A stretch of DNA of 64,000 nt from Sandaracinus sp. (GCA_002699025.1 PABA01000006.1:1-64000), one strand, 5' to 3'. Counted from the stretch's first letter, positions 47,069 to 64,000 are shown. A program made the numbers and translations. Notes: a model not told the origin generated them from the letters alone.

Positions 47069-47961
47069 CCGAAGCACCCGGGCGGTAGCACGTCGTTCAT
47101 GCGGTCGGTCACCCACTCGACGTCCTCCTCCGACATCTCCTCACGAAACCCTCCGACCTGGCCCTTGCGGACCTTGAAGGAGTTCGGGACGTCCGGATCA
47201 CCCGGCCTCAGCCGGTGGCTGGCGAACCCACCTACGGCTTCCTGTCTCCTCATTCGCTCGAAGGCGCTCGCCTCGACCGCGCGCCGAGCGCTCGCATCGG
47301 GCAGCCGGTCGAAGCCGAGCCCGAGCGCCGCGGTGTGGAGTTGCGCGACTGGGTCCGACCTCAGGTCCTCGTATCGAACGACGACGGCATGGGGAAGCTC
47401 CTGCTTGCCTCGCCACCAAATCGCGTAGAAGCGAAGCAGCGATTCGTAGCCACCCCGCTGCGCGCGTAAGAACGCGCTCAGACTTCCGTCGAAATCCCGA
47501 TCACGAGAGCGCCTGTGGTGATATTGGGACACGATCACGTCCCTTGGGTCGCGCACGAGCAGCACCACTCGGCGACGACGGTACGCCGACTTGTCCGTTT
47601 CAAGCTCATCCGGCGTCTTGCGGTGAGGATCATCGTCATGCGTGACCGCAACCCGCGGCGACCCCTCGACCAAGCGGTGGAGGCGCTGAACCTTCGTCAG
47701 GTCGGTCCCCTGAGTGGGCAAGCCGGCGGCGTCCAACACTGCTCGACTCAGCATGACGCGGAGCCACGTCCGACCGCACTTCGGGTATGAGACCAGGTGG
47801 CTTCGAGTCTGCCAGTCGATGTAGGCACGCCGCGCGAAACGGAGCCCGCTCACCAAGCGCTCGGCCAATCCCGCGGGAAGCGTACGCCCGAAGAGCAATT
47901 CCGCGTTGCTCGCGACGGGACCCATCAGGCTCTCGAGACGGCGAAACGGCTTCCTACTCAC
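47053..47961 (-). CDS. sulfotransferase, fourth of four
   Basis: A 302-residue sulfotransferase of the cytosolic/aryl type (Sulfotransfer_1): LVSYPKCGRTWLRVMLSRAV for PAPS, LLVRDPRDVIVSQYHHRR for the 3'-phosphate, and the C-terminal RKGQVGGFREEMSEEDVEWV, which is the family's conserved RKGxxG motif. The GTG at 47961 follows a strong GAGGAGGAGG. It overlaps the wzx stop by 8 bp and is the last gene of the minus-strand export operon. Confidence 0.92.
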   Translation of the reverse strand: MSRKPFRRLESLMGPVASNAELLFGRTLPAGLAERLVSGLRFARRAYIDWQTRSHLVSYPKCGRTWLRVMLSRAVLDAAGLPTQGTDLTKVQRLHRLVEGSPRVAVTHDDDPHRKTPDELETDKSAYRRRRVVLLVRDPRDVIVSQYHHRRSRDRDFDGSLSAFLRAQRGGYESLLRFYAIWWRGKQELPHAVVVRYEDLRSDPVAQLHTAALGLGFDRLPDASARRAVEASAFERMRRQEAVGGFASHRLRPGDPDVPNSFKVRKGQVGGFREEMSEEDVEWVTDRMNDVLPPGCFGYTTG

Positions 47962-49432
47962 CCGACCTCCTCCTCAGGACAGCTGACACACGTGCTCGCC
48001 ACCACTTCACGTCGGACACTAGGATTCGAGGCGGGAAAATCGCAAGCAGTACGAGGGCTGTTGCACAGGTCGCCGCAGCGCCAGACAGCACGACGAATGG
48101 CGACCCACCAGCAGCGCGCAAGCCGAGCGTCGCAACGAACAGCGGCCCACCAGCCAAGACCGCTACCACGACCCCCGCCGCGTGCGCGCCAAAGAAGCGC
48201 GACGGGCTAATGCGCAAGATGTGGAGAGCAAGTCCGTTCAGGACTATGAAGTGAAGCACCAGTGACGCGCCAACCCACCGAGCGACTGCTACCACGCCGG
48301 AGTCGACGAATCCCAGAGTGCCTACGAGGAGAACAGCGGCGTAGAAAAACTGGGAGACGACGTAGCCGCGAATCTTGCCCGTCGACCGACATACCAGACC
48401 GCCCATCTTGTATCCAAGCCGAAAGTAGGACGACAATCCGAGCCAACGAAACGGCTCGACAGCCTCCCCCCAGGCCGGACCAAAGAATACCCCGATGAGC
48501 TCGGGCGCCAACACAAAGAAGGACACACTTGTCAGCAGGCCTCCGGTCGCCAGCGTGCTCACACCGCGAAGATAGGCATTCCCAAGACGTTCACTCTGAC
48601 CTTGTACACGCGCCATAGAGGGGAAGACCACCTTATTGCTCATCTTGGAGAACAACTTCGCGGGCATCTCTAGCAGCTTATATGCCCGATTGTAGTACCC
48701 CAGCGCGTCCATGCCGAGAGCGCGACCAATGATGAGATAGTCCCCCTTGAGAGCCGCGTAGTTGGCGACTTTGGCCAAGGTAATGCCGGCGCCATACCCC
48801 GCCAAGTCCGCGAGGGCTGAACGACTCAACCCGAAGCGCAATGCTCTTGGAGACGCCGCCAGGAAGAGCCCCGTGCTCACCGACGCTTGCGCGAGAAGGC
48901 CGAGAGCGATCGACCATGCGCCCCAGCCAGCGACGGCCAGGGAGACCGCTACGCAGACCTGCCCCACGAAAAAGGCCGCAAACTCGACCAGTGTCGCCGC
49001 CTTGAACCGCAGAGCACGAAGGACTTGGGCGCGAGCTGTTACACCCAGGGCGCGGGCCAGGAAGCTGAGAGACAGGACCTGTACGAACGGAGCCGCGAGC
49101 TCCGATCCGGAGAACGAAGCGAGCTCCTGGGCGAACAGAATTCCAAGGCACGAGAGGCCGAGGCCCAGGGAGACGTTCACGGTCGTCGCAGTGGAGATCT
49201 GATCATCATCCAGGCTCTTCTTCTGGATGAGCGAAGGCCCCAGCCCGAGATCGGCGACCAGATCAGCGAGTCCGACAACAACCTGAGCTGCGGCGACCAG
49301 ACCAAACTGTTCTGGGGACACGAACCTGGCCAGTACAGCCAGCGTCCCCAGCTTCAATAGTGCCTGCCCTCCCGCACCAACAGAGGTCCAAGCGATACCC
49401 GATAATGTCCTTCGAGTTGCCCCGTCGCTCAA
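47954..49432 (-). CDS. wzx: Wzx-type lipid-linked oligosaccharide flippase
   Basis: A 492-residue polytopic protein of the MOP/PST family. GIAWTSVGAGGQALLKLGTL, LARFVSPEQFGLVAAAQVVV, GLGPSLIQKKSLDDDQIST and YYNRAYKLLEMPAKLFSKMS are typical of lipopolysaccharide/capsule flippases of the WzxC/TuaB group. It would move repeat units across the inner membrane. The start is TTG, overlapping the methyltransferase stop as TTGA. Confidence 0.92.
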   Translation of the reverse strand: MSDGATRRTLSGIAWTSVGAGGQALLKLGTLAVLARFVSPEQFGLVAAAQVVVGLADLVADLGLGPSLIQKKSLDDDQISTATTVNVSLGLGLSCLGILFAQELASFSGSELAAPFVQVLSLSFLARALGVTARAQVLRALRFKAATLVEFAAFFVGQVCVAVSLAVAGWGAWSIALGLLAQASVSTGLFLAASPRALRFGLSRSALADLAGYGAGITLAKVANYAALKGDYLIIGRALGMDALGYYNRAYKLLEMPAKLFSKMSNKVVFPSMARVQGQSERLGNAYLRGVSTLATGGLLTSVSFFVLAPELIGVFFGPAWGEAVEPFRWLGLSSYFRLGYKMGGLVCRSTGKIRGYVVSQFFYAAVLLVGTLGFVDSGVVAVARWVGASLVLHFIVLNGLALHILRISPSRFFGAHAAGVVVAVLAGGPLFVATLGLRAAGGSPFVVLSGAAATCATALVLLAIFPPRILVSDVKWWRARVSAVLRRRSGE

Positions 49433-50217
49433 GATACCACGCAGAGCGCCGTAACGGGCGTTATGCGACGAGCCCGAAACCCATGCCGACGGCAGAAGTC
49501 GTCGAATGCCGTGTTCCGCGCCACATCATCACTACCGATAATGGTGCCCGGCCCCGACGCTTCCAGAGCCGTTTCGTATTCGAAGGTCATACATTGGTAT
49601 GAGTGCTCCGAATCATGAAAAAAGAAGTCGACCTGCCCGAGTCGCTGCAGTAGCGGCGGAAGCAATTCGTAGGATCGGCCTTCGAGAAAAGTCCATCGCC
49701 CCAAGAGCTGCTCCGGGATCACCCAACCGGGCCGGGCCCCCTTGGGAATTGCAGCACCGCCTTTGCCACTCCAAAACGCTTCGGCGGAGTAGGATGAATC
49801 GGTGTACTCCGGCAGATCAATCGAGTGTAGGTGGCCTTCCCCGTTCATTTGAAGTGCTAGCAAGATGTAGGCACTCGACACACCGTTGCATACACCGGTT
49901 TCAACCAGCACTCGTGGCTTCGTCTTGCGGACCAACGCGTACCAACGAAGCCTTCCCAAAGCACCGAGCGCCCCAAAACGGTAAGGCTTACCTCGGCTGT
50001 TGAGTTCGGATCCGGTAACACTCTCTTGAAACTCCAAGCGCTTCGCTTCGATGAGTGAATCGAGCCCCGCATCGGCCAGCTCCCGCTGATACTCAGCGAG
50101 CTCACGACTCGAGACCAAGCTGCTGAACTCATGGTCGGAGATCCGCTCGCGCACGAAACGCTGAGCCCTCCGCCTCGCCCAACGCATCGCCCGGAACGCT
50201 GACATGTTGCTACCCAT
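49429..50217 (-). CDS. class I SAM methyltransferase (Methyltransf_24-like)
   Basis: A 262-residue protein. An Arg-rich helical N-terminus precedes the SAM fold: LVETGVCNGVSSAYILLALQ, GHLHSIDLPEY, VDFFFHDSEHSYQCMTFEYE and GPGTIIGSDDVARN. Such enzymes O-methylate sugars or small molecules. The ATG at 50217 overlaps the OPX stop by one base. Codon use is clearly lower in G+C than in genes right of 52.2 kb. Confidence 0.85.
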   Translation of the reverse strand: MGSNMSAFRAMRWARRRAQRFVRERISDHEFSSLVSSRELAEYQRELADAGLDSLIEAKRLEFQESVTGSELNSRGKPYRFGALGALGRLRWYALVRKTKPRVLVETGVCNGVSSAYILLALQMNGEGHLHSIDLPEYTDSSYSAEAFWSGKGGAAIPKGARPGWVIPEQLLGRWTFLEGRSYELLPPLLQRLGQVDFFFHDSEHSYQCMTFEYETALEASGPGTIIGSDDVARNTAFDDFCRRHGFRARRITPVTALCVVS

Positions 50218-50804
50218 CAAAAGACCCGCTCCGGCACATAGATGATGTCGCCATTCTGCATCGGAACATCCGATGAGCGACCCTCCGTGATCCGCTTCAC
50301 CGGCACGCGGTACCGCTCCAGCTCCCCCTCCTCGTTTCGACGTGTCAACACGGTACCGTTCTGATCCGCCAGGTTCGTGAAGCCGCCCGCCGAGGTGATG
50401 GCCTCGACGACGGTCATGCCGTTGGTCATGGGGAAGCTACCCGGCTGTGCTACGGCTCCAATAACGCTGATCCGTTTCGAGTTGTACTCCTCGACGAGGA
50501 CCGACACCTGAGGGGCGAGTAGAATCTCACCTTGCCGAAGTCGGGCGGCGACGAGGTCGGAGACCGCCGGCGGCTCGAGGCCGGCGACCTCGATTCTTCC
50601 CACCAGCGGAAAGTCGATGGTCCCGTCCTCCGCTACGCGATACCGATTGCTGAGCTCCTCTTCGCCGTACACGCGAACCTGGAAGAGGTCACCCGGCCCT
50701 AGGCTCGAGTCGGCCTGGGGCGGCGGCGGAAGCTCGGATGGCGCTGATGACGCCCCGCAGGCCGCCAGGCTCATAACGAACGCCAGGAGGGCAGTACGCA
50801 TCAT
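50217..50804 (-). CDS. short lipidated polysaccharide export (OPX) protein
   Basis: A 195-residue protein with a lipoprotein signal (MRTALLAFVMSLAACG), a Poly_export domain (LGPGDLFQVRVYGEEELSNR, DGTIDFPLVGRIEVAGL, APQVSVLVEEYNSKRISVIG) and one SLBB domain (GAVAQPGSFPMTNGMTVVEA, NGDIIYVPE). It is much shorter than E. coli Wza and lacks a C-terminal amphipathic outer-membrane helix. Together with the adjacent beta-barrel it fits the composite OPX/beta-barrel translocon reported for Myxococcus EpsY/EpsX. Confidence 0.92.
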   Translation of the reverse strand: MMRTALLAFVMSLAACGASSAPSELPPPPQADSSLGPGDLFQVRVYGEEELSNRYRVAEDGTIDFPLVGRIEVAGLEPPAVSDLVAARLRQGEILLAPQVSVLVEEYNSKRISVIGAVAQPGSFPMTNGMTVVEAITSAGGFTNLADQNGTVLTRRNEEGELERYRVPVKRITEGRSSDVPMQNGDIIYVPERVF

Positions 50805-50842
50805 CAGCTCGTTGCTGACCGGCTGCCCAGCGTTCAGACGGG

Positions 50843-52147
50843 TCAGTAGAAGACGCGGACGCCGAGCCACGCCTGGAACTTGGAGAAGTCGGCCGGATCG
50901 ACCACCGGCGACATACCGATGAGGCGATCGTACTCGAAGTCCGTGAAGTCGCCCGTGTACCCCACGGTCGCGTTCAACGCGAGCCAATCAGTGAACCTAT
51001 ACTCGGCGAAGAGCGAGAGGTTGACCATCACGTCCGAGCGCTCGGTGGAACCGTCTACCGTGATGGGAGCCCCGGACGAGTCCACAATGGTCCCAAACTT
51101 CAGGTAGCCGACCCAGGAGTCGAAGCCCAACAGGAACGAGCCACCAAGTAGCCATTGGAAGTTGAGGTAGCCTCGGTCGCGCGTGCGCCAGTTGCCGATG
51201 ACCGAGCCAAGGAAGTCCCGCTCGTAGCCGAACGTCAGTTTGGTGGTGGGAGACAGCTTGAGACGCAGCTCGGCCTGCGCAATGACCGTATCGAAGTCGC
51301 GGAGGGTGGGATCGTCGACGAGGACGGCGCCGTAGCCTACCGCCACGAGGGCGGAGAGCCGCGGGGTGAGCGCGCCATTGAGGCCAACACGATTCCGAAC
51401 TCTGACGTTGTCAGACACTCGTAGCACCGACGGATCCTGGTAGTTCGTAAAGTCGGCCGTAAAATCGTAGAAGAGCGTGGTGTGGGGCAGGAATCGGAAG
51501 TTGGCCCCAGCCTCCGCCCGATGAATCAGCGCGTTCCCGAAGTCGAACGCATCGTTCTCGAAAAACTGCCAGGTCAAGTCATAGCCGAGGTTGGCGCTGA
51601 ACACCCCTCCGCGGGTCTGGAACCTGAGGTTGCCGCCGGCGACATTCGTGATCCTCCCGAAGTCGTTCCCAGCCCCCGACTCCGTGAAGGGCCGGACACG
51701 TCGAGAGAACCGGTCGTAGACCGAGAAGGTCACGGGACCATCCGGCAGAATGCTCAGCTCCAGGTCGCCGTTGATGCCAACGTCATTCCGAGCCTGGTCT
51801 TCGAGAAAGACATAGATGGGCGCGGCGACGCCGGCACGGAACTGGACCTTGGGGGCCTGGGTACGCTCTTCCCCCCCATCCTCGCGGCGTTGCTCGCCGA
51901 GCGTCGAAACGTCAAAATGCGGCGTGATCCGAAAGATCGCGCTGCCGACCGGTTCATCACTCATGAAGACGTTGCTGTCGTAGCCGCCTTCGACTCCGAT
52001 TCCTGGATGCAGCTCGAGGTTTCCAACGCGGAAGCCGGGCCCCTCGCGCCTCGCACGGTCACCGAGCCAAGCCTGTGCTGATACGATGGTCGCAGAAGGC
52101 AACAAGAGGGCTGCCACGCACACCGTGCGGATGATCATTCGAAGCAT
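50843..52147 (-). CDS. outer-membrane beta-barrel protein, likely export-channel partner
   Basis: A 434-residue protein with a signal peptide (IIRTVCVAALLLPSATIVSA) followed by alternating amphipathic beta strands and a terminal phenylalanine/tyrosine strand (FQAWLGVRVFY). Examples are NLELHPGIGVEGGYDSNVFM and HTTLFYDFTADFTNYQDPSV, resembling EpsX/Wzp-type outer-membrane proteins of myxobacterial exopolysaccharide loci. It begins 38 bp upstream of the OPX gene in the same operon. It would supply the outer-membrane pore that the short OPX protein lacks. Confidence 0.85.
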   Translation of the reverse strand: MLRMIIRTVCVAALLLPSATIVSAQAWLGDRARREGPGFRVGNLELHPGIGVEGGYDSNVFMSDEPVGSAIFRITPHFDVSTLGEQRREDGGEERTQAPKVQFRAGVAAPIYVFLEDQARNDVGINGDLELSILPDGPVTFSVYDRFSRRVRPFTESGAGNDFGRITNVAGGNLRFQTRGGVFSANLGYDLTWQFFENDAFDFGNALIHRAEAGANFRFLPHTTLFYDFTADFTNYQDPSVLRVSDNVRVRNRVGLNGALTPRLSALVAVGYGAVLVDDPTLRDFDTVIAQAELRLKLSPTTKLTFGYERDFLGSVIGNWRTRDRGYLNFQWLLGGSFLLGFDSWVGYLKFGTIVDSSGAPITVDGSTERSDVMVNLSLFAEYRFTDWLALNATVGYTGDFTDFEYDRLIGMSPVVDPADFSKFQAWLGVRVFY

Positions 52148-52202: not shown

Positions 52203-52799
52203 TCAAATCGTCCCGCTTTCGGGGGGCGGAACGAAGGGGATCACCCCTGGCGGAATATCCGGGAGGGTCCTTGGATCCTCCGTGGGGGTGTCCGGGTCGA
52301 TCTCGGTGATGACCCGGGTGGCGCCCGTCTCGAAGATGTCCTGACCGATGCACTGCGCGGCCTCGCGGTCGAGGACCACGAACTTCTGGCCGAGCACGGT
52401 GATGACGGTGAACTCGTGGTTGCGGCGACTGGAGTCGTCGGCCTCGACGGCGTCCTCGAGGTTGTCGATGCGCTGCTCCACGGTGCGGAGGTTGGCGTTC
52501 ACCTGGGTGAGCTTGTCGTTGACGCAGGTCACGCGGATGATGTCGCGCTCCTGACGGGCCTCGTCGAGCATGGCGGAGACCCGGCGGCTGAGGTCGGTGC
52601 CTCGCTGCTGGATGGCTCGCGCCTCTTGAAGCTGCTCCTGCGGCCCGAGGTTGGCGCGGCGACGCACGTCGACCTCGCCCTCGGCGGGGGCTTCTTCCGC
52701 GACCTCGTCGTCGTTCTGGGCGCCGGCGAAGCCGAGGCCGCTGGTCGCGAGCCCGATGGCGATCACCGAGCCGAGTATGACGCGCATGCGTCGAGTCAT
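52203..52799 (-). CDS. secreted protein of unknown function heading the export operon
   Basis: A 198-residue protein with a signal peptide (VILGSVIAIGLATSGLGFAGA), a helical, coiled-coil-like middle (QLQEARAIQQRGTDLSRRVS, NDKLTQVNANLRTVEQRIDN), a short beta domain (FTVITVLGQKFVVLDREAAQ) and a Pro-rich end. I do not recognise a family. It has a strong ribosome site (GGAGGGG) and the sigma70-like promoter at 52825-52852. First gene of the operon with the barrel, OPX, methyltransferase, Wzx and sulfotransferase, so a periplasmic export role is plausible. Confidence 0.85.
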   Translation of the reverse strand: MTRRMRVILGSVIAIGLATSGLGFAGAQNDDEVAEEAPAEGEVDVRRRANLGPQEQLQEARAIQQRGTDLSRRVSAMLDEARQERDIIRVTCVNDKLTQVNANLRTVEQRIDNLEDAVEADDSSRRNHEFTVITVLGQKFVVLDREAAQCIGQDIFETGATRVITEIDPDTPTEDPRTLPDIPPGVIPFVPPPESGTI

Positions 52800-53337: not shown

Positions 53338-54822
53338 TCAGTTCTGCGGGGCGAAGACGAACGGGTAGCTGAAGGTGACGCTGCCGCCGTCGGGGCCCGG
53401 GTTGAAGCGGAAGCGGCGGACGGTGCGGACGACGCAGTTGGCGACCGCCGCGCTGCCGGTGGTGTTCTCGGACGCGCGGGCGTTGGTCACGGTGCCGCGC
53501 TCGACGATCGTGAACTCGACGGTGACCTTGCCCTCGAGCGTCGGGTTGGTGCGGAGCTCGGTCTCGTAGCAGCGCTGGATGGCGCGGAGGCGGGTGCGGA
53601 TGGTCCGCACGACGACGCTGGAGTCGAAGTCACCAGAGCCGCCGATGTCGCCGCCCCGGTCGAGGCGGATGTTGCCCATGATCGAGCGCTCCATCACGGC
53701 GCCGCCCTCCATGGCGGCCATGCCGGCGTTCATGCTCGCGGCGAGCTGGCCGAGCATGCCGCCCTCGCCGGAGCCCATGCCGCCGCCGCTCCGCGTGCGG
53801 AGCGTGCCGCTGTTGCTGCGGGTCGCGACGCCGACGCCACCGGCCTGCGCGAGGACCTCTTCCGCGTTGCTCGTCACGGCGCCGCCGGCGAGCACGTCGG
53901 CGAGGGCGCCGCCGGCCGCGTTGTCGATCGCGCCGAGGATCAGGGCCTCGGCGTTGGAGGCGACCTCCTCGGCGATCCGGGCCCGGGCCTCGGCGCTGTT
54001 GTTCGGGTTGGACTCGCCGCTCGACTCGCCGCTCGACTCACCGGAGCTCGAGCTCGAGCTCGTCGTCGTCTCGGTGACCTCGGCGACCTCGTCGGTCTCC
54101 TCGGGCTCCTCGGTCGGCTCGTCGGTCGTCTCCTGCGGCTCGGGTGGAGGCGCGGGCTCCTCGAAGATCAACCGGGCCACGCTCTCCGGGACGGCCGCGA
54201 TCCCTTGCTGGATCGGCCAGTCGGCGTTCTCCAGGTAGATGACGAAGCCGAAGAAGGTCATGTAGCTGAACACGACGAAGGCCGTGAAGAGCCAGTCGAT
54301 GCCGGCCACGAAGCCGCCGCGGGCCGCGGCCGGGAGCTGCGGGCGCGGGGTGACGGGCGGCGGCACGACGAACTGGAAGAGGATCGTGACGTTGCCGACG
54401 ACGATCTTGCCGCGGCTCGTGTCGCTCAGCTTCACCTGCCAGTGCGAGCCGGCGTTGCGCGCGCCGCCCGAGGCGCGGAGCTGCTCGAGCTGCTGCACGC
54501 CCCCCGGCAAGCCCACGCGGCCCTTCATGTCGGCGGTGAAGTTGAGGATGTAGTCGCTGCCGACGAGCTGGAAGAGATCGAAGCGGGCCGGAAGACCCTT
54601 CGCCTGGACGATGAAGTGGTTCTTCTCGGAGGTGCCGACGCTCACGGTCTCGCGGCGGCGGATGATCCGCTCCTCGATGATCTTGCCGTCCTGGATGAGG
54701 CCGATCCGGAGGACCTTCGGCCCCTGGGGCTTGGTGGCCACGGCCTGCATGGCCATGGTCATTGCGCCGGGGCGCTGGCCGCCCTTCTGCTGGCCCTGTT
54801 GCGGTCGCTTCTGCGTCGCCAT
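53338..54822 (-). CDS. GltG-like gliding/transducing protein (FHA-like, TM, TonB-type C-terminus)
   Basis: A 494-residue protein from the ATG at 54822 (a GTG at 54879 would add 19 residues). Residues about 37-152 form an FHA-like beta domain (RRRETVSVGTSEKNHFIVQA). A membrane helix follows (about 177-197), then a Pro/Glu/Thr acidic and Ser-rich linker. The C-terminal 90 residues (QRCYETELRTNPTLEGKVTV, VRRFRFNPGPDGGSVTFSYP) are the AgmX/PglI C-terminal TonB-like domain. In Myxococcus such proteins link the inner-membrane motor to periplasmic and outer-membrane Glt parts. Confidence 0.9.
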   Translation of the reverse strand: MATQKRPQQGQQKGGQRPGAMTMAMQAVATKPQGPKVLRIGLIQDGKIIEERIIRRRETVSVGTSEKNHFIVQAKGLPARFDLFQLVGSDYILNFTADMKGRVGLPGGVQQLEQLRASGGARNAGSHWQVKLSDTSRGKIVVGNVTILFQFVVPPPVTPRPQLPAAARGGFVAGIDWLFTAFVVFSYMTFFGFVIYLENADWPIQQGIAAVPESVARLIFEEPAPPPEPQETTDEPTEEPEETDEVAEVTETTTSSSSSSGESSGESSGESNPNNSAEARARIAEEVASNAEALILGAIDNAAGGALADVLAGGAVTSNAEEVLAQAGGVGVATRSNSGTLRTRSGGGMGSGEGGMLGQLAASMNAGMAAMEGGAVMERSIMGNIRLDRGGDIGGSGDFDSSVVVRTIRTRLRAIQRCYETELRTNPTLEGKVTVEFTIVERGTVTNARASENTTGSAAVANCVVRTVRRFRFNPGPDGGSVTFSYPFVFAPQN

Positions 54823-54972
54823 CGTCTCTCGTTCCCTCGTCGTGCGGTCGACGGGCAGGTCGGCCCCGCCCTGCTTCACCTCGTCGGCTCCTGGATGGGA
54901 CCCGGGAAGAGGCTGGCAGATTGGACCACGGGCGTCGCCGAAAGTTCCGGGCGCTCCCGTGGGCGAAACCTA

Positions 54973-55608
54973 TCACCCCTCCGCGCCGAGCGTCCAGGGC
55001 GAGGGCGCGTCCTCGCCATCGAGCCGGAGAAGCGCGTTCTCCAATCGTTCCTTGAGGTTACGCCCGCCGTCGAGGAGCTCCTTGGCCACGCCCTTCAGCT
55101 GGGCGCGCGCGTAGAGGGCGAAGCCGGCGGTCGCGATGCCGATCGCGATGGCCAGAAAGGCGCCCTCCTGGGCGCGCTCCTCGGGCAAACCGGCCACCAG
55201 GCCCGCGAGGCCCGGGTCGCCGACCTGAATCCAGATGTACTGGCCGAGGGCGCCGAGGAGCCCGGCGGCGGTGCCCACGTGGGCGAGGATGCGCAGCGTC
55301 CGGAGCCCGTCGGCGGCCTCGAAGCGGAGATCGCGAAAGAGCTCGGCGAGCGCCAGCCCCGGGTCGAGACCCTCGGCCCGCGCCTCGAGGCCCTCCCGGG
55401 CCAGCCGCGCCAACCAGGCCTCCCCGCCCCGCTGCGCCAGCGCCATCGCCCCATCGAGCTCTCCCGCGGTGACGCGCTTCAGCAGCGCGCGGACGAAGGG
55501 CGGGCCCTCCAGCGCCGCCGCGTCGAAGGCGAGCCGGCGCACCCGCCGCCACACCAGCACGGCGACCAGCGCGGCCAGCGCGACCTGGATCGCGTGGAAG
55601 ATCCCCAC
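54973..55608 (-). CDS. MotA/TolQ/ExbB-family proton channel protein
   Basis: A 211-residue inner-membrane protein starting with GTG. Three hydrophobic segments are visible: residues about 4-20, 106-125 (LAHVGTAAGLLGALGQYIWI) and 150-168 (FLAIAIGIATAGFALYARAQ). The last holds the conserved threonine of TolQ/ExbB/MotA pores. It would use the proton gradient to drive the TonB-like GltG partner encoded next. No TolR/ExbD protein is visible in the window. It lies 15 bp downstream of the small secreted protein gene. Confidence 0.85.
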   Translation of the reverse strand: MGIFHAIQVALAALVAVLVWRRVRRLAFDAAALEGPPFVRALLKRVTAGELDGAMALAQRGGEAWLARLAREGLEARAEGLDPGLALAELFRDLRFEAADGLRTLRILAHVGTAAGLLGALGQYIWIQVGDPGLAGLVAGLPEERAQEGAFLAIAIGIATAGFALYARAQLKGVAKELLDGGRNLKERLENALLRLDGEDAPSPWTLGAEG

Positions 55609-55623
55609 GGGCGAGCCGCGGCC

Positions 55624-55869
55624 TCAGAAGGGCTCGCGCCGGACGCTGCGAATGATCTCGCGGACGAAGGTGGTCCGGAGATCGAGGACCTCGTAACCGA
55701 GGTTCGAGCGGTTGAGGATGTAGAAGGCGTTCGGCTTCTGCACCCGGCCCTCGATGCGGATCTCCTCGAGCTGGATGACCCGCGGCTGCCGGTTCTGCGC
55801 CTCGGCGGGGGCGGGGCCCAGCGCGAGGAAGGAGGCGGCGAAGAGGATCGTGGCGAGGATCAGACGCAT
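55624..55869 (-). CDS. small secreted protein with C-terminal RSVRRxPF motif
   Basis: An 81-residue protein: signal peptide (LILATILFAASFLALGPAPA, cleavage near AEA), then EEIRIEGRVQKPNAFYILNR, and the end FVREIIRSVRREPF. It is a sister of the gene just upstream (55923-56195): both have an I-x-G-R-x-Q-(K/R)-P segment and end in RSVRR-x-PF. Located between the TPR lipoprotein and the TolQ-like gene, so a periplasmic partner of the complex. No known family. Confidence 0.85.
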   Translation of the reverse strand: MRLILATILFAASFLALGPAPAEAQNRQPRVIQLEEIRIEGRVQKPNAFYILNRSNLGYEVLDLRTTFVREIIRSVRREPF

Positions 55870-55922
55870 GGCGGTGGCTCGAGAGGGGTTCGGCTCGCGA
55901 AGAAGACGGTGGGAACGGGGAA

Positions 55923-56195
55923 TCAGAAGGGCGCGCGGCGGACGCTGCGGGGGATCCGGCGGACCCGATCCTCGCCCCGATCACGCCGCTCGGTGCGGCG
56001 GACCACGTCGCGCGGCGCGGGGAGCAGGATGCTCATCGGGCGCTGTGGACGGCCCTCGATGTCCTGGACGGGGAGCACGATCACGCCGCGCGCGTCGGGC
56101 TCCTGGGCCAGGGCGGCCGCAGGGGCGAGGAGGGCAGGGGCAAAGAGGCCGACGGCGATGGCGGCGATGGCCAACGTGGTGAGCACCTTCTTCAT
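55923..56195 (-). CDS. small secreted protein with C-terminal RSVRRxPF motif (sister copy)
   Basis: A 90-residue protein: signal peptide (VLTTLAIAAIAVGLFAPALL, cleavage near ALA), then VLPVQDIEGRPQRPMSILLP and the end RRIPRSVRRAPF. It shares the GRPQRP/GRVQKP segment and the terminal motif with 55624-55869, suggesting tandem duplication. The ATG overlaps the stop of the TPR lipoprotein by one base, with GAGGGGAG upstream. Confidence 0.87.
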   Translation of the reverse strand: MKKVLTTLAIAAIAVGLFAPALLAPAAALAQEPDARGVIVLPVQDIEGRPQRPMSILLPAPRDVVRRTERRDRGEDRVRRIPRSVRRAPF

Positions 56196-57748
56196 CACTC
56201 GCTCCCCTCCTCGCGGGCGCCTCGATCGGCTTCCATCTCCCGCCGGCGCGCCTCGCGCTCCATGCGGCGGCGCGTGCGCTCGATCTGCCGGTCGAGGTCC
56301 TCGAGGTAGCCCGTCGACGGGTCGTCGCGCGGCAGCCGCGGGCCCATCTGATCGCGGTAGCGCGTGAACTCCTGCTTGGCCCGCTCGAGCGCCTGGAGCG
56401 CGTCGAGCCCCGGGAAGTCCTCGCCGGCCGACTGGTACATCAGGCCGAGGTTGAAGTGCGCCTGAGGGAGCTCGGACTCCATGGAGAGCGCCTTCTCGAA
56501 GGAGGCCTTGGCCTTCTCCCACTGCTTGGTCGCCCGGTAGGCGTCGCCGAGGTTCAGGTGCACGGCGACCAGGGTCGGCGCGAGCCGCGCGGCGGTCTGG
56601 AAGTGCTGGAGCGCCTCGGTGTAGTTGCCGCCGGCCAGGAGCATCACGCCGAGCTGCACGCGGGCCTCGGCGTAGTCGCCACGGAGCTCCACGGCGCGCC
56701 GGAACTCGCCGAGGGCGTCGCGGAAGCGGCCCGGCTCGTCGCGGAGCATCATGCCCTTGATGAAGTGGAGCTCGGCGTCGCGCTCGTCGACCTCGAGGGC
56801 CTGATCGAGCACGGACTCGGCCAGCTCGGTCCGGCCCTGGGCCCGCGCCGCCTTCACGATGGCGGTCAGCGCGGGGACGAAGCGCTCGTCGCAGCGGAGC
56901 GCCACGCGCGCGGCGTCCCAGGCCTGGTCGTAGCGCTCGGCGTGCACGAGCACCTCGGCGTAGATCGCCTGGAGGTGGAGGTTCGTGCGGTGCGAGCGGG
57001 CCAGCGGCTCGATGAAGGCGAGCGCGTCGGGCACGGAGCCGCGCCGGAGGAAGATGGTGACCATCCCGTCGGCGGCGCGCTCGTAGTCGCTCTGGATGCG
57101 GAGCGCCTGCCGGTAGTACTCCATGGCCCGGTTGGTGTTGCCGGCGCGGTCGGCCAGCACGCCGAGGTTGTAGGCGGCCTTGAAGGCGTTTCGATCCTCG
57201 CTGATGGCGCGCTGGAAGGCCTGCTGGGCCCGGGCCGTGTTGCCCCGGTTGGCCTCGCGGACGCCGTCCTCGAAGGCCCGGCGCGCGGCCGAGCTCATCT
57301 GGCGACGCTCGGGGGCGCGGCACTGCTCGGCGCGCGTCTCGCCCCACATGTTCCCGGCCTCTTCACCGCCATCGGCCGAGTCGCCACCGGCCGAGTCGCC
57401 ACCGGCCGAGTCGCCACCGGCCGAGTCACCGCCATCCGAGGAACCGCCTCCATCGGAGCCGCCCTCGTCGCCCGAGTCGGAGCCCGAGCCCTCGTCGCCG
57501 TCCCAGCCGTCGCCGCCGTCCTCGTCGGGCTCGCGGCTCCCGGGCGGGCGCTCGAGATCGCTCATCCCCTCGCCGCCGGTGTCCTCACCGCCGCTGCTGC
57601 CCTCGCCGTCCTCGGCCGTCGTCTCCTCGTCGTCCTTGCAGCCGCTGGCCGGCGCCCAGGCCACGGCGCCCAGGAGCACCGCGACGAGCGACCAGCTGCG
57701 GAAGCCGGCGAGCGGAGAAAAGGTCCGATGTGTCCGGATGCGCTCCAT
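56195..57748 (-). CDS. TPR lipoprotein (GltE/AglT-like)
   Basis: A 517-residue protein. A lipoprotein signal ends in WAPASGC. About 110 acidic and Gly/Ser-rich residues follow, with four GGDSA repeats. From about residue 135 on there are TPR units (FKAAYNLGVLADRAGNTNRA, PTLVAVHLNLGDAYRATKQW, LPQAHFNLGLMYQSAGEDFP), then a charged helical tail. By build and position next to the GltD- and GltG-like genes it corresponds to the lipidated TPR protein AglT/GltE of Myxococcus. Gap to the upstream gene 11 bp. Confidence 0.87.
   Translation of the reverse strand: MERIRTHRTFSPLAGFRSWSLVAVLLGAVAWAPASGCKDDEETTAEDGEGSSGGEDTGGEGMSDLERPPGSREPDEDGGDGWDGDEGSGSDSGDEGGSDGGGSSDGGDSAGGDSAGGDSAGGDSADGGEEAGNMWGETRAEQCRAPERRQMSSAARRAFEDGVREANRGNTARAQQAFQRAISEDRNAFKAAYNLGVLADRAGNTNRAMEYYRQALRIQSDYERAADGMVTIFLRRGSVPDALAFIEPLARSHRTNLHLQAIYAEVLVHAERYDQAWDAARVALRCDERFVPALTAIVKAARAQGRTELAESVLDQALEVDERDAELHFIKGMMLRDEPGRFRDALGEFRRAVELRGDYAEARVQLGVMLLAGGNYTEALQHFQTAARLAPTLVAVHLNLGDAYRATKQWEKAKASFEKALSMESELPQAHFNLGLMYQSAGEDFPGLDALQALERAKQEFTRYRDQMGPRLPRDDPSTGYLEDLDRQIERTRRRMEREARRREMEADRGAREEGSE
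57373..57430. repeat. 15-bp minisatellite in the TPR lipoprotein gene
   Basis: A 15-bp unit (GGCCGAGTCGCCACC on the plus strand) is repeated nearly perfectly about four times and encodes the GGDSA repeats of the acidic linker. The unit keeps the reading frame, so copy number can vary without frameshift. Confidence 0.8.
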
Positions 57749-57759
57749 CGGGGTCGTCC

Positions 57760-60700
57760 TCACTGGTCCAGCGCCGGCGCCGCCGTGTCGGGCTCGAGGG
57801 TCAGGTTCTGGCCGCGCGGCGCCCGCGCGAACTCGCCGGGCTGGTAAGCCTGGAAGCTCGGGTCGGTCGACTGGGCCTGGGCGATGCACTCGGCGATGCG
57901 CTCGTCTCCGTAGGCCTGGAGCCGATCGATGGCCACGCGCGCGTACTCGGTGTCGATGCTGCCGGCCCGCGCCGCCCGGGCGGCCAGCGCGTAGCGCGCG
58001 ACGCCGAGGCACTCGATGGGCCGGACCTGCTCGTCGAGGACCATGCGGATGCGATCCTCGACCTGGATACGGATGTCCTCGCGCGCGTCGCCGCTCACGC
58101 GCCGGAGCTGCCGCTGCAGATCCGCCGGCATGGCGAAGGGCGTGTTCAGGACGGCGCGCGCGAGCACCTCGTAGACCCGCCCCTGCTGCACGAAGGCGGC
58201 GATGGTCCACTGCGGGCGGCCGAACTGCATCACGGCGTTGAAGCCGTCCGCGTAGCGCTGGGCCTCGGCGGCGCCCTCGTTGATCTCCCGGAGCACGGTC
58301 TGGACGTAGGCCTCGAGCGTCGGCGGGCGGCCGACCTCGACCTCCCAGCTCTCGAACTCGTCGACCGTGTCGTTCGTGATCAGGAACTGGGCGTGCGCGG
58401 CGTACTCGGCCGCGATGGAGCCCCGCTCCTGGCCGCTCCGCTCGTAGGCCGAGACCACGTCCTGGAGCGCGCGCATGTAGTCGCGCGTCTGCCGCATCTC
58501 CTTGCGGGCCTGCGCGATGCGCCAGTAGGCCTGCACGACGAGCTCCTGGGCGTCCCCGTCGCGCTGGTAGCGCTGGATGAACTCGCGCATCTCGCGGATG
58601 GCGAGGTTCCAGTTCCGCCGGTTGTAGGCGATCTCGGCGATGCGGTAGGTGGCCGTGCGCTTCAGATCCTCGTCCGCGTCGGGCGAGCGGAGGATGAGGT
58701 TGTAGTAGCGCGTGGCCTCGTCGTAGCGCTGGAGCCGCTCGAAGATGACGGCCGTGTTGACGAGCGCGTCGCGGCGGAACTCCTCGATGCGCTCGTCGCT
58801 CGACTCGCGGAAGCGGCGCGAGTCGACGAGCACCCGGTAGTTGTCCACGGCCGTGTCGAAGTCGAAGCCGCGGTTCGCGTTGTAGGCCACGCGGAAGTAG
58901 GCGTTCGCGACGATGGCGTCGAGGCTGGCCTGCTGCTCCGGGTCGTCCGACTGACGCGGGCCGACCTCGTCGATGATCCGCTGGTAGAGCTGCCGCGCCG
59001 AGTCGAAGCGCTGGGTCTGCTCGAGGGCGGTCGCGGCGTACTCGAGGGCGAGGGGCGCCTGCGAGTTGCCCGGCGTCCGGTTCACGGCCTGGACGAGCAT
59101 GGTCGCCGCCCGCTCGTAGAGCTCGGTCTGCTGGTCCCCGGTGGCGGCCTCGGCCTGCCGGTAGACCTCCAGCGCGCGCTGGTACTCGATGGCCGTCAGG
59201 TCCTCCATGGCCCGGCAGCAGCGGTCCTCGGAGTTGTCCGGGTTCGCGCAGAAGGTCCGGAGCTGGTCGCCCGTGGGACAGGCCTCGCCGTCCGGGCTGA
59301 AGGTGCAGCCACGGCGCGAGAGGTCGCGCGCCAGGCGCTCGATCTCGTCGGTGTCGTTCAGCGCGATGGCCATGGCGCGGAGGTTCTCCCACGCCACCTC
59401 GCCGGTGGAGTCGGCGTAGGGGCCGGCGCAGCGCTCGTCGAAGATGCGCTCGAAGCGCTCCTTCGCCTGGGGCCAGTAGCCGTACCAGTAGAGGAGGAGC
59501 GCGTTGTTGTAGTCGTAGGCGGCGCGGACGCCCTCCGAGTCCTGCGCGTCGCTGACCCGGGCGAGGTAGAGCTCGCGGGCCTGGGCGAGGCGCTGCAGGA
59601 GCTGCGGCATCTCGACCGGACGCACCGAAGGCGGCGTGCCCTGCGGGGCCGGCGGCTCGCTGCGGATGGTGAGGCGCCCGGCCTCCTCCTCGGCGTCGGC
59701 GATCTGCTTGAGCGACTCGACCACGCGGCGGGCGGACTCGCTGAGGTGCACGTCGTCGAGGTTCGAGTCGCGCACGGCGGCGTAGGCGCGGGCCGCCTCC
59801 TCGTAGTTCTCCGACCAGTAGAGCGCGTCGGCGAGGTTGTACTGCAGCTCGTAGGCCTGCGGGTTGTTCGGGTAGCGCTCGAGGTAGCGCCGGTACGCCT
59901 CGGCCGCGCGCTGGTAGTGCCCCTTGGCCACGTCGAAGAGCTCGAGGGCCCGCTCGACGTCGCCGGCGTTCGCCGCCTCGACCGAGTGGCGCCGCTCGCG
60001 CTGCGCCGTCTGATGCTCGTGGATGGCGGTCGCGATGAGCGCGTTCTCCGCGAGCTCCTCGGCGCGACGCTGCTCGGCCGGGTTCTCCGTGTTCGTGTCG
60101 TACCACTCGCTGCCCGGCAGGTACTGGCCGAGCTCGGAGCGGGCCGCGATGGCCTCCTCGAACTCGTTGTTCCGCTGGTGGGCGCGCGCGATCATGTTGG
60201 TGATCTCGGGCGCCATCGGGTGGTTCGGCCAGCGCGAGAGGGCCAGGCGCCAGACCTCGACCGCCTGCGGGTACTTGGCCTCCTCGAAGAAGACGTTGCC
60301 CAGCTCGAAGTAGACCTCGGCGGTCCAGTCGCGGTCCTGCGGGAGGAGGTTCGGATCCTGCACGCGCGTGATCGGGCGCGGCATGCCCTCGACGTTGTCG
60401 GGGAGGCCGTTCTCGTTCCAGTCGTCGTACGCGAAGGCGATGCCGAGGTACTGGATGGCCTCCGGGCGGAGCTGCGAGCCGGCCTGGCCGGTGCGCGCCT
60501 GCTCGTCGTCGGACCACTGCACGAGGCGGCCGAAGGCGTCGATGGCCTCCGGGTAGCGGCTCGCGCGGTAGTAGGCCCAGGCGACCTTGTAGAGCGCGAG
60601 GTTGTAGTTGCGGTCCTCGGGGTCGTCGAGGATCTGGTTGTAGGCCGCGATGGCCAGGTCGAGCGCGTGCGGGCTGCCGTAGTCGTCGAAGTGGTACTCG

Positions 60701-61785
60701 CCGATGCGGAACCAGGTCTCGCTGACGAACTCGGCGTCTTCGCGGACCGGCTGGCAGTCCTGGTAGGGGTTCACGAACTCGGGCTCGGCGAGGGGGTCTT
60801 CCTCCTCGTCGCCGTCGAGCGTCAGGGCCGGGTGCGCGTCCTCGGCGTCCTCGCCCTCCCCTTCGCCGTCGAGGTCCTCGCCGTCGAGGTCGTCGCCCTC
60901 GAGGTGGTGGTCGGGGTCGTAGGTGTACTGGTTGGCGCAGACCAGGTTCAGGTAGGCCTGGAGCGCCTCCTCGGGCCGGCCCATCTCGTTCAGGCAGTAG
61001 CCGATCAGGTAGTAGACGCCGTCGAGCCGGCGGTAGTCGGGGAACTGCTCGACCAGCCGGCGATAGAGCTCGATGGTCGGGTCGAAGTCCGGCGTCTCCG
61101 GGAGCTCGACGTCTTCCTCGCCCGCGTCCATGCGGGCCTGGGCCTCGTCGTAGCCCTCCTGGAACTGGATGGCGCTGCGCTCGTAGTAGAGCTCGCCGAG
61201 GCGGAACATCGCGTCGGGCGTGTAGGTCGGGTCGTCCGGGTAGCGGCGGACGAAGCGCTCGAACTGGCGGATGGCGTTCTCGCGGGCCTCGTCGAGGAGG
61301 CGCTCCTCCTCGCGGATCTGGTGCGCGTACCACTGGTTGCGGCCACGGCGCTGCCGGAGGTACTCGCGGCGAACGAGGCTGACGACGGTGTTGCCGTAGG
61401 CGCCGCCGGCCTGGCTGAAGCGGGCGACCTCGGCCTCCATCTCGCGGAGGGCCGCGATCTGCTCGGGCGTGGGCGGCGGGCGCTCGTCGACGATGCGGGT
61501 GTCGGTGGTGTCGAGGAAGGTGGGGAGCGGCGGCGGAGTGTCGGCCGTCCGCGGCTGGTCACGCCCCACGGTCCCGTCTTGGACGGTTCCATCTTGAACG
61601 GTGCCGTCCTGGACCGTTCCGTCCTGCGCGGTGCCGTCCTGGACCGTGCCGTCCTGCACGGTTCCGTCTTGAACGGTTCCATCTTGGACGGTGCCGTCCT
61701 GCGGCTGGGCGAGCACGACCGAAGCGCCGAACATCAGCGCCAGGCCCGCCCCTCGGAGCACGTTCACATGCAGCGGGCGACTCAT
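57760..61785 (-). CDS. very large secreted TPR protein (GltD/AgnA-like)
   Basis: A 1341-residue protein with a signal peptide (VLRGAGLALMFGASVVLA) and nine QDGTV-type repeats (about residues 29-73). Many TPR units fill the rest (PDAMFRLGELYYERSAIQFQ, DGVYYLIGYCLNEMGRPEEA, YELQYNLADALYWSENYEEA, RFDSARQLYQRIIDEVGPRQ). A Cys-rich patch (CRCCRAM-like) lies near residue 855 and an acidic linker near 300. It should be a periplasmic scaffold of the gliding-type complex. The ATG overlaps the upstream stop (ATGA). Confidence 0.87.
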   Translation of the reverse strand: MSRPLHVNVLRGAGLALMFGASVVLAQPQDGTVQDGTVQDGTVQDGTVQDGTAQDGTVQDGTVQDGTVQDGTVGRDQPRTADTPPPLPTFLDTTDTRIVDERPPPTPEQIAALREMEAEVARFSQAGGAYGNTVVSLVRREYLRQRRGRNQWYAHQIREEERLLDEARENAIRQFERFVRRYPDDPTYTPDAMFRLGELYYERSAIQFQEGYDEAQARMDAGEEDVELPETPDFDPTIELYRRLVEQFPDYRRLDGVYYLIGYCLNEMGRPEEALQAYLNLVCANQYTYDPDHHLEGDDLDGEDLDGEGEGEDAEDAHPALTLDGDEEEDPLAEPEFVNPYQDCQPVREDAEFVSETWFRIGEYHFDDYGSPHALDLAIAAYNQILDDPEDRNYNLALYKVAWAYYRASRYPEAIDAFGRLVQWSDDEQARTGQAGSQLRPEAIQYLGIAFAYDDWNENGLPDNVEGMPRPITRVQDPNLLPQDRDWTAEVYFELGNVFFEEAKYPQAVEVWRLALSRWPNHPMAPEITNMIARAHQRNNEFEEAIAARSELGQYLPGSEWYDTNTENPAEQRRAEELAENALIATAIHEHQTAQRERRHSVEAANAGDVERALELFDVAKGHYQRAAEAYRRYLERYPNNPQAYELQYNLADALYWSENYEEAARAYAAVRDSNLDDVHLSESARRVVESLKQIADAEEEAGRLTIRSEPPAPQGTPPSVRPVEMPQLLQRLAQARELYLARVSDAQDSEGVRAAYDYNNALLLYWYGYWPQAKERFERIFDERCAGPYADSTGEVAWENLRAMAIALNDTDEIERLARDLSRRGCTFSPDGEACPTGDQLRTFCANPDNSEDRCCRAMEDLTAIEYQRALEVYRQAEAATGDQQTELYERAATMLVQAVNRTPGNSQAPLALEYAATALEQTQRFDSARQLYQRIIDEVGPRQSDDPEQQASLDAIVANAYFRVAYNANRGFDFDTAVDNYRVLVDSRRFRESSDERIEEFRRDALVNTAVIFERLQRYDEATRYYNLILRSPDADEDLKRTATYRIAEIAYNRRNWNLAIREMREFIQRYQRDGDAQELVVQAYWRIAQARKEMRQTRDYMRALQDVVSAYERSGQERGSIAAEYAAHAQFLITNDTVDEFESWEVEVGRPPTLEAYVQTVLREINEGAAEAQRYADGFNAVMQFGRPQWTIAAFVQQGRVYEVLARAVLNTPFAMPADLQRQLRRVSGDAREDIRIQVEDRIRMVLDEQVRPIECLGVARYALAARAARAGSIDTEYARVAIDRLQAYGDERIAECIAQAQSTDPSFQAYQPGEFARAPRGQNLTLEPDTAAPALDQ
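61567..61701. repeat. nine-copy 15-bp minisatellite encoding QDGTV
   Basis: Nine in-frame 15-bp units encode QDGTV (one reads QDGTA) just after the signal peptide of the large TPR protein. Synonymous differences between units show some age. The repeat gives a flexible, low-charge spacer. Confidence 0.9.
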
Positions 61786-64000
61786 TCCGCGCCCTCCTCG
61801 TCATCCGAGCGGATGTCCATGATGTCGCGGAACTCGTCGTCCAGCGCCTGCAGCTCGCGGCTGCGCTCGCGGGTCAGGATGTCCACGCGCATCCGGTGCT
61901 CCTCGCGCTGCGCCCAGGAGACGTCGATGCGTCCGACGTCCGCGCGCAGCACCAGATCGTAGAAGCGATCCCGCACGTCGTTGAACGCCCCGTAGGTCAC
62001 GCTCCCCACGACCTCCTCGGTCTCGCCCTCGAGGCCGGCGATGGCCTCGCGGTAGCCGACGAGGTTCTGGCTCTCCTCGTCGATGACCCGCTGCATGTCC
62101 GCCGTCCGCTCCTCGACGCGCGCCTCGATGGTCGCGTCGTGCTGGTCGAGGCGCGCCTCGATGCGGATGATGCGCGCGAAGAGCGGCCCGGTGCGCCCGT
62201 TGCGCCCGCCGAGCTCGTGCTCGCGCTGAACGAGCCGGTTGTACTCTTCGCGGAGCCGGTCGTCGCGCTGGTAGCGGACGTCCCCGACGCCCACCTGGAT
62301 GCGCGCGATCTCGATGAGGTCCGTGAGCTCCTCGATCTCCTCGCGGTAGGTCGCGACGGCGGCGCGCTGCTGGGCGAGCTCCGCGCGGACCGCCTCCGGA
62401 TCCTGCTGGTCGCCCTCGGTCTGGGCGAGGAAGCGCTCGGTGGCGACGATGCGCGCCTCCATGCCGAGCAGCTCCACTTCGAGATCGCTCAGCTCGCGCT
62501 GGAGCATGCGGTAGCGGCCGAGCAGCTGATCGTCCCGGGAGATGAAGTCGTCCTCGGAGGTCGGCATGCCGCCGAGGGCCCGCTCGATGCGCCGGCGATC
62601 CTCCCGGACCGCCTGCAGCTCGGAGCTCGCCCCGCCCTGCCGCTCCTCCCAGCGCGCCAGCTGGCGGCGCACCTGCGAGAGCCGGTTGCGAAGCGACGTC
62701 GTCGACTCCCGATGCCGGCGGAGATCGCCGAACACGCTGACCCGGTTCGGCGCGTTGATGGCCGCGGTCAGGCGCTGGATGAGATCGTCGGTCTCCTCGA
62801 CCATGCGCCGGGCCTGGCTGAGGTCGCTGAGCACGCCCACGGCGCGCTCGAAGTCGCCCTCGAGGTCGACGTAGTTGCGCGACGACTCCGGGAGGAAGTC
62901 GTTGACGTCGAAGTCCTCCATGTTCTCCCGGACGAGCGAGCGGAAGTGCCCGAGCAGGTCGCCCTCGTGCGCCTCGCGGATGTCCTCGAGCTCCCGGAAG
63001 ACCGGACCGAACTCGTTGCGCACCCGGCGGAAGACCTCGGTCGCGTCGTCGAAGCGGCCGTTCCGGAGCAGGAGGTTGCCCCGGAGCACCTGGCCGTCGG
63101 GGATGTGCGGGCTGTCGGGCGCGGCCACGGAGAGCACCTCGAGGGCGCGCTCGGCGCGGGTCGAGTCGCCCAGGCGGATGTAGACCCAGGCGATCTCGTA
63201 GAGGGCGTCGTCGAAGCTGTTCGAGGTGCGCGGGACGGCCTGGTAGGCCTCGATGGCCTGGTCGAGCTGGTCCGTCTCGTAGTAGAGGCGGCCGAGCGCG
63301 AGGTGCGTCAGGTCGATCACGCGCTGCTGCTCGGGCGTCGAGGCCTCGGAGCGGAGCACGCGGCGGAAGGCCTCGATGGCCTGCGGGTACTCGCCGCGGA
63401 GCGTGTGCACGACGCCGATGAAGTAGCGGGCCTGGGGGTAGTAGGCGCTCCCCTGGGGGACGGCCTCGAAGGCCTCGCGGCCCTGCTCGAGCATGGCCAT
63501 GTCGACCTGCTCGCTGCCGCCCTCCTCGAGCTGCTCCTCGAGCGGGACCGCGCGGTTGTATAGGTACTTCGCGCGGAAGTAGGCCGTGTTGGCCTCGACC
63601 TCGGTCGGCGGGAGCCGGCTCAGCTGCTGGAAGTAGGCCTCGACGCCGTCGAAGTCGCGCACGTGGATGGCGATCTCGATGAGGCGCCCGAGCGAGCGCT
63701 GTACGTAGGGGCGAAAGGCGGGCTCGTCCGCGCGGTCGAGGAGGAGCCGGAACTTGGTGCGGGCGCCGAGGTAGTCGCCGGCCTGGTAGAGGCTGTCGGC
63801 GAGGAGGAAGAGGGCGTCCGGGTAGGCGCGGTGGCGCGGGAAGTTGTCGACGATGTCGGTGAAGATGATCGACGCGCGCAGGTAGTCCTGGAGCCGGTAG
63901 TAGAGCTCACCGTCCGTGAGGCGCTCCTCGACGTAGGTGGGGCTCCGGACGGCGGAGGCCTGCAGCGGCTGGCGCGTCAGGTTGTCGAGGTCGCCCTCGA
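61782..64000 (-). CDS. TPR and coiled-coil protein, 5' end outside the window
   Basis: The frame is open from the stop at 61782 to the window edge (about 739 codons visible); the GTG at 63662 is internal, since clear TPR sequence (YPDALFLLADSLYQAGDYLG, RPYVQRSLGRLIEIAIHVRD) continues upstream. TPR units fill the first part (YPQARYFIGVVHTLRGEYPQ, LGRLYYETDQLDQAIEAYQA). A long charged coiled-coil region follows (SQVRRQLARWEERQGGASSE, ELAQQRAAVATYREEIEELT). It is coupled to the GltD-like gene by ATGA and is probably another part of the same periplasmic complex. Confidence 0.88.
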   Translation of the reverse strand, partial: EGDLDNLTRQPLQASAVRSPTYVEERLTDGELYYRLQDYLRASIIFTDIVDNFPRHRAYPDALFLLADSLYQAGDYLGARTKFRLLLDRADEPAFRPYVQRSLGRLIEIAIHVRDFDGVEAYFQQLSRLPPTEVEANTAYFRAKYLYNRAVPLEEQLEEGGSEQVDMAMLEQGREAFEAVPQGSAYYPQARYFIGVVHTLRGEYPQAIEAFRRVLRSEASTPEQQRVIDLTHLALGRLYYETDQLDQAIEAYQAVPRTSNSFDDALYEIAWVYIRLGDSTRAERALEVLSVAAPDSPHIPDGQVLRGNLLLRNGRFDDATEVFRRVRNEFGPVFRELEDIREAHEGDLLGHFRSLVRENMEDFDVNDFLPESSRNYVDLEGDFERAVGVLSDLSQARRMVEETDDLIQRLTAAINAPNRVSVFGDLRRHRESTTSLRNRLSQVRRQLARWEERQGGASSELQAVREDRRRIERALGGMPTSEDDFISRDDQLLGRYRMLQRELSDLEVELLGMEARIVATERFLAQTEGDQQDPEAVRAELAQQRAAVATYREEIEELTDLIEIARIQVGVGDVRYQRDDRLREEYNRLVQREHELGGRNGRTGPLFARIIRIEARLDQHDATIEARVEERTADMQRVIDEESQNLVGYREAIAGLEGETEEVVGSVTYGAFNDVRDRFYDLVLRADVGRIDVSWAQREEHRMRVDILTRERSRELQALDDEFRDIMDIRSDDEEGAE

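Follow-up and report, generated by a model that had tools for sequence, protein, structure and literature searches.

A stretch of DNA from Sandaracinus sp. (64,000 nucleotides, hereafter the window; positions follow the numbering of contig C17, and the window ends at position 64,000) carries a row of genes resembling gltD, gltE and gltG of Myxococcus, with a gene for a TolQ-like protein just ahead of the gltG-like one. Does this row encode a trans-envelope machine with its own proton channel, as an earlier reading made from the sequence alone (the sequence-only reading) had proposed? We found that the TolQ-like protein has lost its pore residues and that the ExbD genes are missing, which together speak strongly against a built-in channel. 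The reading that we favour, and think moderately probable, is that the row encodes a Glt/Nfs-type transducer of a polysaccharide-export row, driven in trans, in which a pore-dead TolQ is kept as a structural subunit.

The genes are transcribed from the minus strand in the order X422, GltC-, GltD- and GltE-like, a degenerate GltF copy, GltF/CglF-like, TolQ-like and GltG-like, and the row continues 3' of gltG with d198 (a secreted protein of 198 amino acids), a beta-barrel protein and a short OPX (Wza) protein. The sequence-only reading had correctly grouped GltD-, GltE- and GltG-like genes with a TolQ-like gene and genes for two small secreted proteins; all are on this strand, and the latter three separate GltE from GltG. 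Its gene list was incomplete, as a GltC-like gene, present in all relatives compared, precedes gltD, X422 precedes GltC, and the row extends past gltG. X422 and the start of gltC lie beyond the window. The part of the row up to gltG comprises:

64163-65431 (contig, just upstream of the window), minus strand: X422, secreted protein; its stop overlaps the start of the GltC-like gene
61782-64166 (61782-64000 inside the window), minus strand: GltC-like protein with tetratricopeptide repeats (TPRs) and coiled coil, 794 amino acids; NF033756, E = 3.7e-29, 102 bits
57760-61785, minus strand: GltD-like TPR protein, 1341 amino acids, signal peptide, many TPRs; assigned by homology and by the gltD slot in all relatives
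56195-57748, minus strand: GltE-like TPR lipoprotein, 517 amino acids; NF033758, E = 4.5e-38, 131 bits
55923-56195, minus strand: sm1, degenerate second GltF-like copy, 90 amino acids, signal peptide; its ending SVRRAPF is common to sm2
55624-55869, minus strand: sm2, GltF/CglF-like secreted protein, 81 amino acids; NF033764 (CglF), E = 3.9e-4, below cut-off
54973-55608, minus strand: TolQ-like protein, predicted pore-dead, 211 amino acids; TolQ fold, Ala120, Ile154 and Gly149 replacing ExbB Thr148, Thr181 and Glu176
53338-54879, minus strand: GltG-like TonB-type transducer; NF033760, E = 4.2e-41; NF033768 over cut-off

The GltG-like protein has a cytoplasmic N-terminal domain, a single transmembrane (TM) helix and an AgmX/PglI C-terminal domain.

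The TolQ-like protein and its pore residues

The relationship of the 211-residue protein to TolQ is real, judging by profile comparison and a predicted structure, though PF01618 alone misses it (10.3 bits, below the gathering score of 22.9). Profile-profile comparison with true TolQ gave E = 9.5e-18 over 188 columns. An AlphaFold model built from 31 sequences had a mean predicted local distance difference test score (pLDDT) of 93.7, and its best PDB matches by Foldseek were TolQ and ExbB (TM-score about 0.6-0.69), followed lower in the list by other MotA/PomA-type 5:2 motors. Conservation of the gene within the row, which the sequence-only reading had made a test of its proposal, was borne out: it occupies the same position in about 25 relatives.

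The same reading had named missing pore residues as grounds for abandoning the channel, and these residues are gone. The essential residues of this family are threonine and aspartate, the threonines being 148 and 181 in ExbB and 145 and 178 in TolQ (PMC12905483). In our alignment, Ala120 of the window protein stands at ExbB Thr148, Ile154 at Thr181 and Gly149 at Glu176. In a wider alignment set, the pore residues are lost in all 24 rows of this form, which we call pseudo-TolQ. All 21 pseudo-TolQ sequences aligned here have Ala, Val or Ile in the TM2 threonine column and Ile, Val, Leu, Phe or Met in the TM3 threonine column; both columns hold Thr in each of the ten true TolQ rows. Pseudo-TolQ also lacks the helix with which true TolQ begins at its N-terminus. 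A TolR/ExbD gene, suggested as something to look for upstream of the window, was found neither upstream of the row nor anywhere on contig C17, and no relative with the pseudo-TolQ form has an ExbD gene between TolQ and GltG; elsewhere in the Sandaracinus genome there are 13 ExbD matches. Thus, pseudo-TolQ is predicted to be unable to conduct protons itself.

We also estimated the ratio of non-synonymous to synonymous substitution rates (dN/dS), using near pairs only; distant pairs appear synonymously saturated at very high G+C content at third codon positions. The three near pairs gave 0.14, 0.21 and 0.35 for pseudo-TolQ, with most neighbour genes at 0.07-0.33. Median pairwise identity of TolQ is 82% in relatives with a built-in motor (state A, below), the highest of any gene in the row, versus 31% in relatives with the pseudo-TolQ form (state B), the lowest, and pseudo-TolQ is the fastest-evolving gene of the row; its alignment varies too much to yield patterns for finding related loci. 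These ratios, and the contrast in identity, indicate that pseudo-TolQ is kept by purifying selection, under a constraint much looser than that on a motor subunit.

Relatives of the row and their motors

Relatives were gathered by surveys of the order, class and phylum and by a named scan, and the regions around the matches were read. The slot between gltF and gltG occurs in four states. State A, TolQ-ExbD-ExbD with pore threonines, is found in Nannocystis, Plesiocystis, Enhygromyxa, Paraliomyxa, certain further families of the class and most of the clusters read from other classes. The usual row in those other classes is X422-GltC-GltD-GltE-GltF-TolQ-ExbD-ExbD-GltG, mostly followed by d198, the beta-barrel and OPX; the built-in motor was found there at loci L300, L301, L303, L306, L308-L310, L312, L314, L316 and L318, nearly always with the pore threonines. 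State B, a pore-dead TolQ without ExbD, comprises the window, Sandaracinaceae and several related families (about 25 genomes). State P, in Polyangiaceae, is a shorter and more degenerate open reading frame that resembles state B at profile level (probability 85%). In state C, seen in the SG8-38 group and some other families, the slot is empty; in a tree of X422 and GltD, SG8-38 is nested among members of state B. State A is likely the ancestor, because the full motor is present in other classes. The energised complex with its own motor imagined for the window describes Nannocystis, Plesiocystis and other classes and families, not the window copy.

Two further observations concern these motor genes. 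At a locus of another class (L313 in genome G309, about 9552-10322), a TolQ-like gene lacks the TM2 threonine and has no recognised ExbD beside it; this is a second such TolQ, possibly an independent case of the same loss. In the ExbD pairs of built-in-motor loci (L300, L301, L303, L306, L308-L310, L314, L316, L088 and L090), the first protein has Asn for the essential Asp (MNMV, MNLV) and only the second has Asp itself (MDIM), so that Asn and Asp are naturally paired; the separate trio of Sandaracinus described next has Asp in both.

A locus elsewhere in genomes of the order holds a pair of divergent TolQ-ExbD-ExbD trios (L286-L290; in Polyangiaceae L084 and others). In the genome of the window this twin-trio locus lies on contig C69, at about 13.3-17.7 kb, and its proteins keep the threonines in the aligned TolQ and the ExbD aspartates. 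A second AglR-type TolQ was not found in Nannocystaceae, which keep the built-in motor, and across the 23 genomes compared the built-in motor and the separate twin motors are complementary. The TM helix of GltG is as conserved where pseudo-TolQ has been lost (L194, L222, L244) as where it is kept; the partner of GltG is therefore probably the separate motors and not pseudo-TolQ. In Myxococcus, AglR contacts GltG and the motor genes are unlinked (PMC3169522), and by analogy we infer that one of the C69 trios may drive the GltG of the row. A TolQ-ExbD-ExbD set on contig C149 was rejected as the motor, since it adjoins the gene for a TonB-dependent receptor and belongs to a TonB set. In four genomes (G115, G121, G124 and G075), a single Polyangiaceae-type contig carries both the row and the twin motor locus, separated by about 58-79 kb.

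Gliding paralogues and the polysaccharide-export locus

Gliding had been offered as one possible function of the machine, with envelope transport as the other. The GltC-, GltE- and GltG-like proteins all fall short of the gliding equivalog cut-offs (NF033756, 102 of 450 bits; NF033758, 131 of 225; NF033760, 141 of 650), so that the row encodes paralogues of the gliding Glt proteins, not those proteins themselves, and we rejected equating it with the gliding machinery; nothing we found points to gliding. The GltG-like protein passes the more general profile for the AgmX/PglI C-terminal domain (NF033768, 95.2 bits against a cut-off of 40). This tail domain has 34 matches in the genome, which amounts to a large set of TonB-like transducers.

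The two small proteins had been rightly described as secreted, and wrongly as novel. Sm2 matches NF033764 weakly (20.4 bits against a cut-off of 90), and its core KPxAFYxLxRS...SVxxxxF is common to the protein in the same slot as far away as Nannocystis. Sm1, its divergent copy, is restricted to part of the family. GltF and CglF of Myxococcus are one protein (PMC4488436), and GltF has been said to resemble a TonB box (PMC9389320).

The genes on the other side of gltG bear on transport. The row was correctly seen to adjoin a polysaccharide export locus:

52203-52799, minus strand: d198, secreted protein; conserved directly after gltG, no Pfam family
50843-52147, minus strand: beta-barrel protein in a WzpB-like place beside the OPX gene; PF10082 (BBP2_2), E = 8.5e-12; conserved after gltG
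50217-50987, minus strand: short OPX (Wza-type) polysaccharide export protein, 256 amino acids; PF02563, E = 2.8e-20, and SLBB
47954-49432, minus strand: Wzx-type flippase; PF13440, E = 1.3e-68
42919-45144, plus strand: Wzc/Wzz-type co-polymerase with AAA domain; PF02706, PF13807 and PF13614

The adjacency is conserved. Of the state B loci with enough sequence, nearly all (exceptions L149 and L151) have d198, beta-barrel and OPX in this order 3' of gltG, as do SG8-38 and Polyangiaceae; in state A and in other classes the order is kept in part or whole, with OPX across much of the phylum. Beside the flippase and co-polymerase, the sugar-polymer genes of the window include an initiating glycosyltransferase and further sugar genes. 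The conserved link to export supports, indirectly, the suggestion of envelope transport. Overall, the sequence-only reading was partly confirmed in what it observed and partly supported in how it interpreted it.

A short OPX protein with a beta-barrel partner is a known type of translocon in myxobacteria, according to excerpts of two reports (PMC9603273, PMC9601211). The window agrees with this type (short D1D2, class 3 OPX with an 18-stranded beta-barrel): its OPX protein is shorter than 280 amino acids and adjoins the gene for the PF10082 barrel. It differs in that the excerpts report no Glt-type row beside the translocon. The biosurfactant polysaccharide (BPS) of M. xanthus has an orphan OPX gene, MXAN_1915, one megabase away from its pathway, and in Sandaracinus WzaB (MXAN_1915) is contiguous with other BPS genes (PMC7310880). 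MXAN_1922 is a GltD paralogue of the G4 cluster (PMC3169522), seven tags from MXAN_1915. Going by locus tag only, and not by sequence, this places a Glt paralogue 6-7 genes from the WzaB/WzpB pair (MXAN_1915/1916), as in the window, and the three genes may belong to one row like that described here. NF033758 (GltE), used as a marker for Myxococcaceae, gave no match over its cut-off in the genome collection.

Several features of the surroundings were also recorded. X422 heads the row across the phylum and belongs to no Pfam or NCBIfam family; a model of an X422 relative (pLDDT 80) combines a beta sandwich with one long helix, and its fold weakly matches transthyretin/adhesin-like proteins. Divergent from the row, at 65625-66242 of contig C17, lies a gene for an ECF-type sigma factor, a possible regulator. 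The polysaccharide genes (window 24000-52000) have a G+C content of 0.61-0.69 versus 0.70-0.77 on either side, and a sulfotransferase gene is found at 47053-47961.

A proposed mechanism and its alternatives

Under the reading that we favour, one of the C69 trios would drive GltG through its conserved TM helix, as the separately encoded AglRQS drives GltG and NfsG in Myxococcus. GltG would then pull, via GltF, GltE, GltD and GltC, on outer-membrane parts, and force applied there could move, release or arrange the polymer leaving via the OPX/beta-barrel pair. Pseudo-TolQ would survive as a membrane subunit that changes fast and most likely serves docking or assembly beside GltG, and would have been lost altogether in the SG8-38 group. 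The closest precedent is the M. xanthus spore coat machine, in which, according to an excerpt of its description, Agl-Nfs moves Exo polymer on spores (PMC3858216). Both systems set a Glt-type transducer beside Wza-type export, with the motor encoded elsewhere; in the same excerpt nfs and exo are separate loci, whereas the transducer and OPX/beta-barrel genes of the window are contiguous, and no pseudo-TolQ is mentioned for M. xanthus. The Group B core complex of Luciano et al. (gltC, gltD, gltE, gltG, aglR, aglQ and aglS; PMC3169522) likewise clusters GltC, GltD, GltE and GltG, and relatives of the window also carry TolQ and two ExbD genes in the row. Unlike Group B, the window lacks a pore-competent AglR-type TolQ and the two ExbD genes (AglQ, AglS), and its row includes GltF-like, X422, d198, beta-barrel and OPX genes.

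This reading needs to be held with some caution, as four points weigh against it. The tree of the row has long deep branches and its root is not reliable; in several loci, of Nannocystaceae and others, d198 or the barrel went unrecognised by simple tblastn; operon-like spacing and gene order are no proof of one function; and the C69 trios may serve others among the GltG-like proteins whose tails are so numerous in the genome.

Three other explanations compete with it. That the TolQ-like protein is a working proton channel, energising the machine with ExbD supplied from elsewhere, would suit its position in the slot of the true motor TolQ, its predicted fold and the ExbD matches scattered through the genome; we regard it as highly improbable, given the group-wide loss of the threonines and of the glutamate in the window protein, the missing N-terminal helix, the want of ExbD in the row of any relative with this form and a rate of change exceeding that of every other gene of the row. 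Rapid evolution is, by itself, what a dying remnant without function would show, with the machine run by separate motors alone, and the traceless loss in SG8-38, nested inside the group that has pseudo-TolQ, and the still shorter remnant in Polyangiaceae point the same way. However, an open frame of about 200 amino acids persists in some 25 genomes of several families, longer than is likely for a neutral remnant, and the dN/dS values of near pairs and the high-confidence predicted fold also speak for retention, which leaves this explanation unlikely.

The row might instead be an unenergised, static scaffold that spans the envelope from the polymerase side of the inner membrane to the OPX/beta-barrel pair, with pseudo-TolQ as its membrane base. 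Motor genes have indeed been lost from the row, its conserved TPR and coiled-coil proteins could span the periplasm, and it is linked to export. A static structure fits poorly with the TonB-like C-terminal domain and strongly conserved TM helix that GltG keeps, and with the retention of intact twin AglRQS-type motors precisely in those genomes without a built-in motor, and we consider it distinctly unlikely.

Returning to the transducer driven in trans, pseudo-TolQ is predicted to share the three-TM fold of the TolQ, ExbB and MotA subunits of 5:2 motors and differs from them in lacking the proton-path threonines, the N-terminal helix and an ExbD/TolR partner. We see about an even chance that such a pore-dead, TolR-less TolQ has been retained by selection as the structural base of a TonB-like transducer with its true motors elsewhere, and that a widespread Myxococcota OPX/beta-barrel export row has this machine as a dedicated and possibly force-driven part. 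A pore-dead TolQ would show the structural role of a 5:2 motor subunit separated in nature from the ion-conducting one, and the relatives offer the full series from working built-in motor through dead subunit to loss. The conserved link to OPX/beta-barrel export is of more use than the answer on the channel. Luciano et al. did not settle what the Glt paralogue clusters G4 and G5 do; the adjacency reported here connects one type of Glt paralogue cluster with polysaccharide export in much of the phylum, and is directly testable in M. xanthus.

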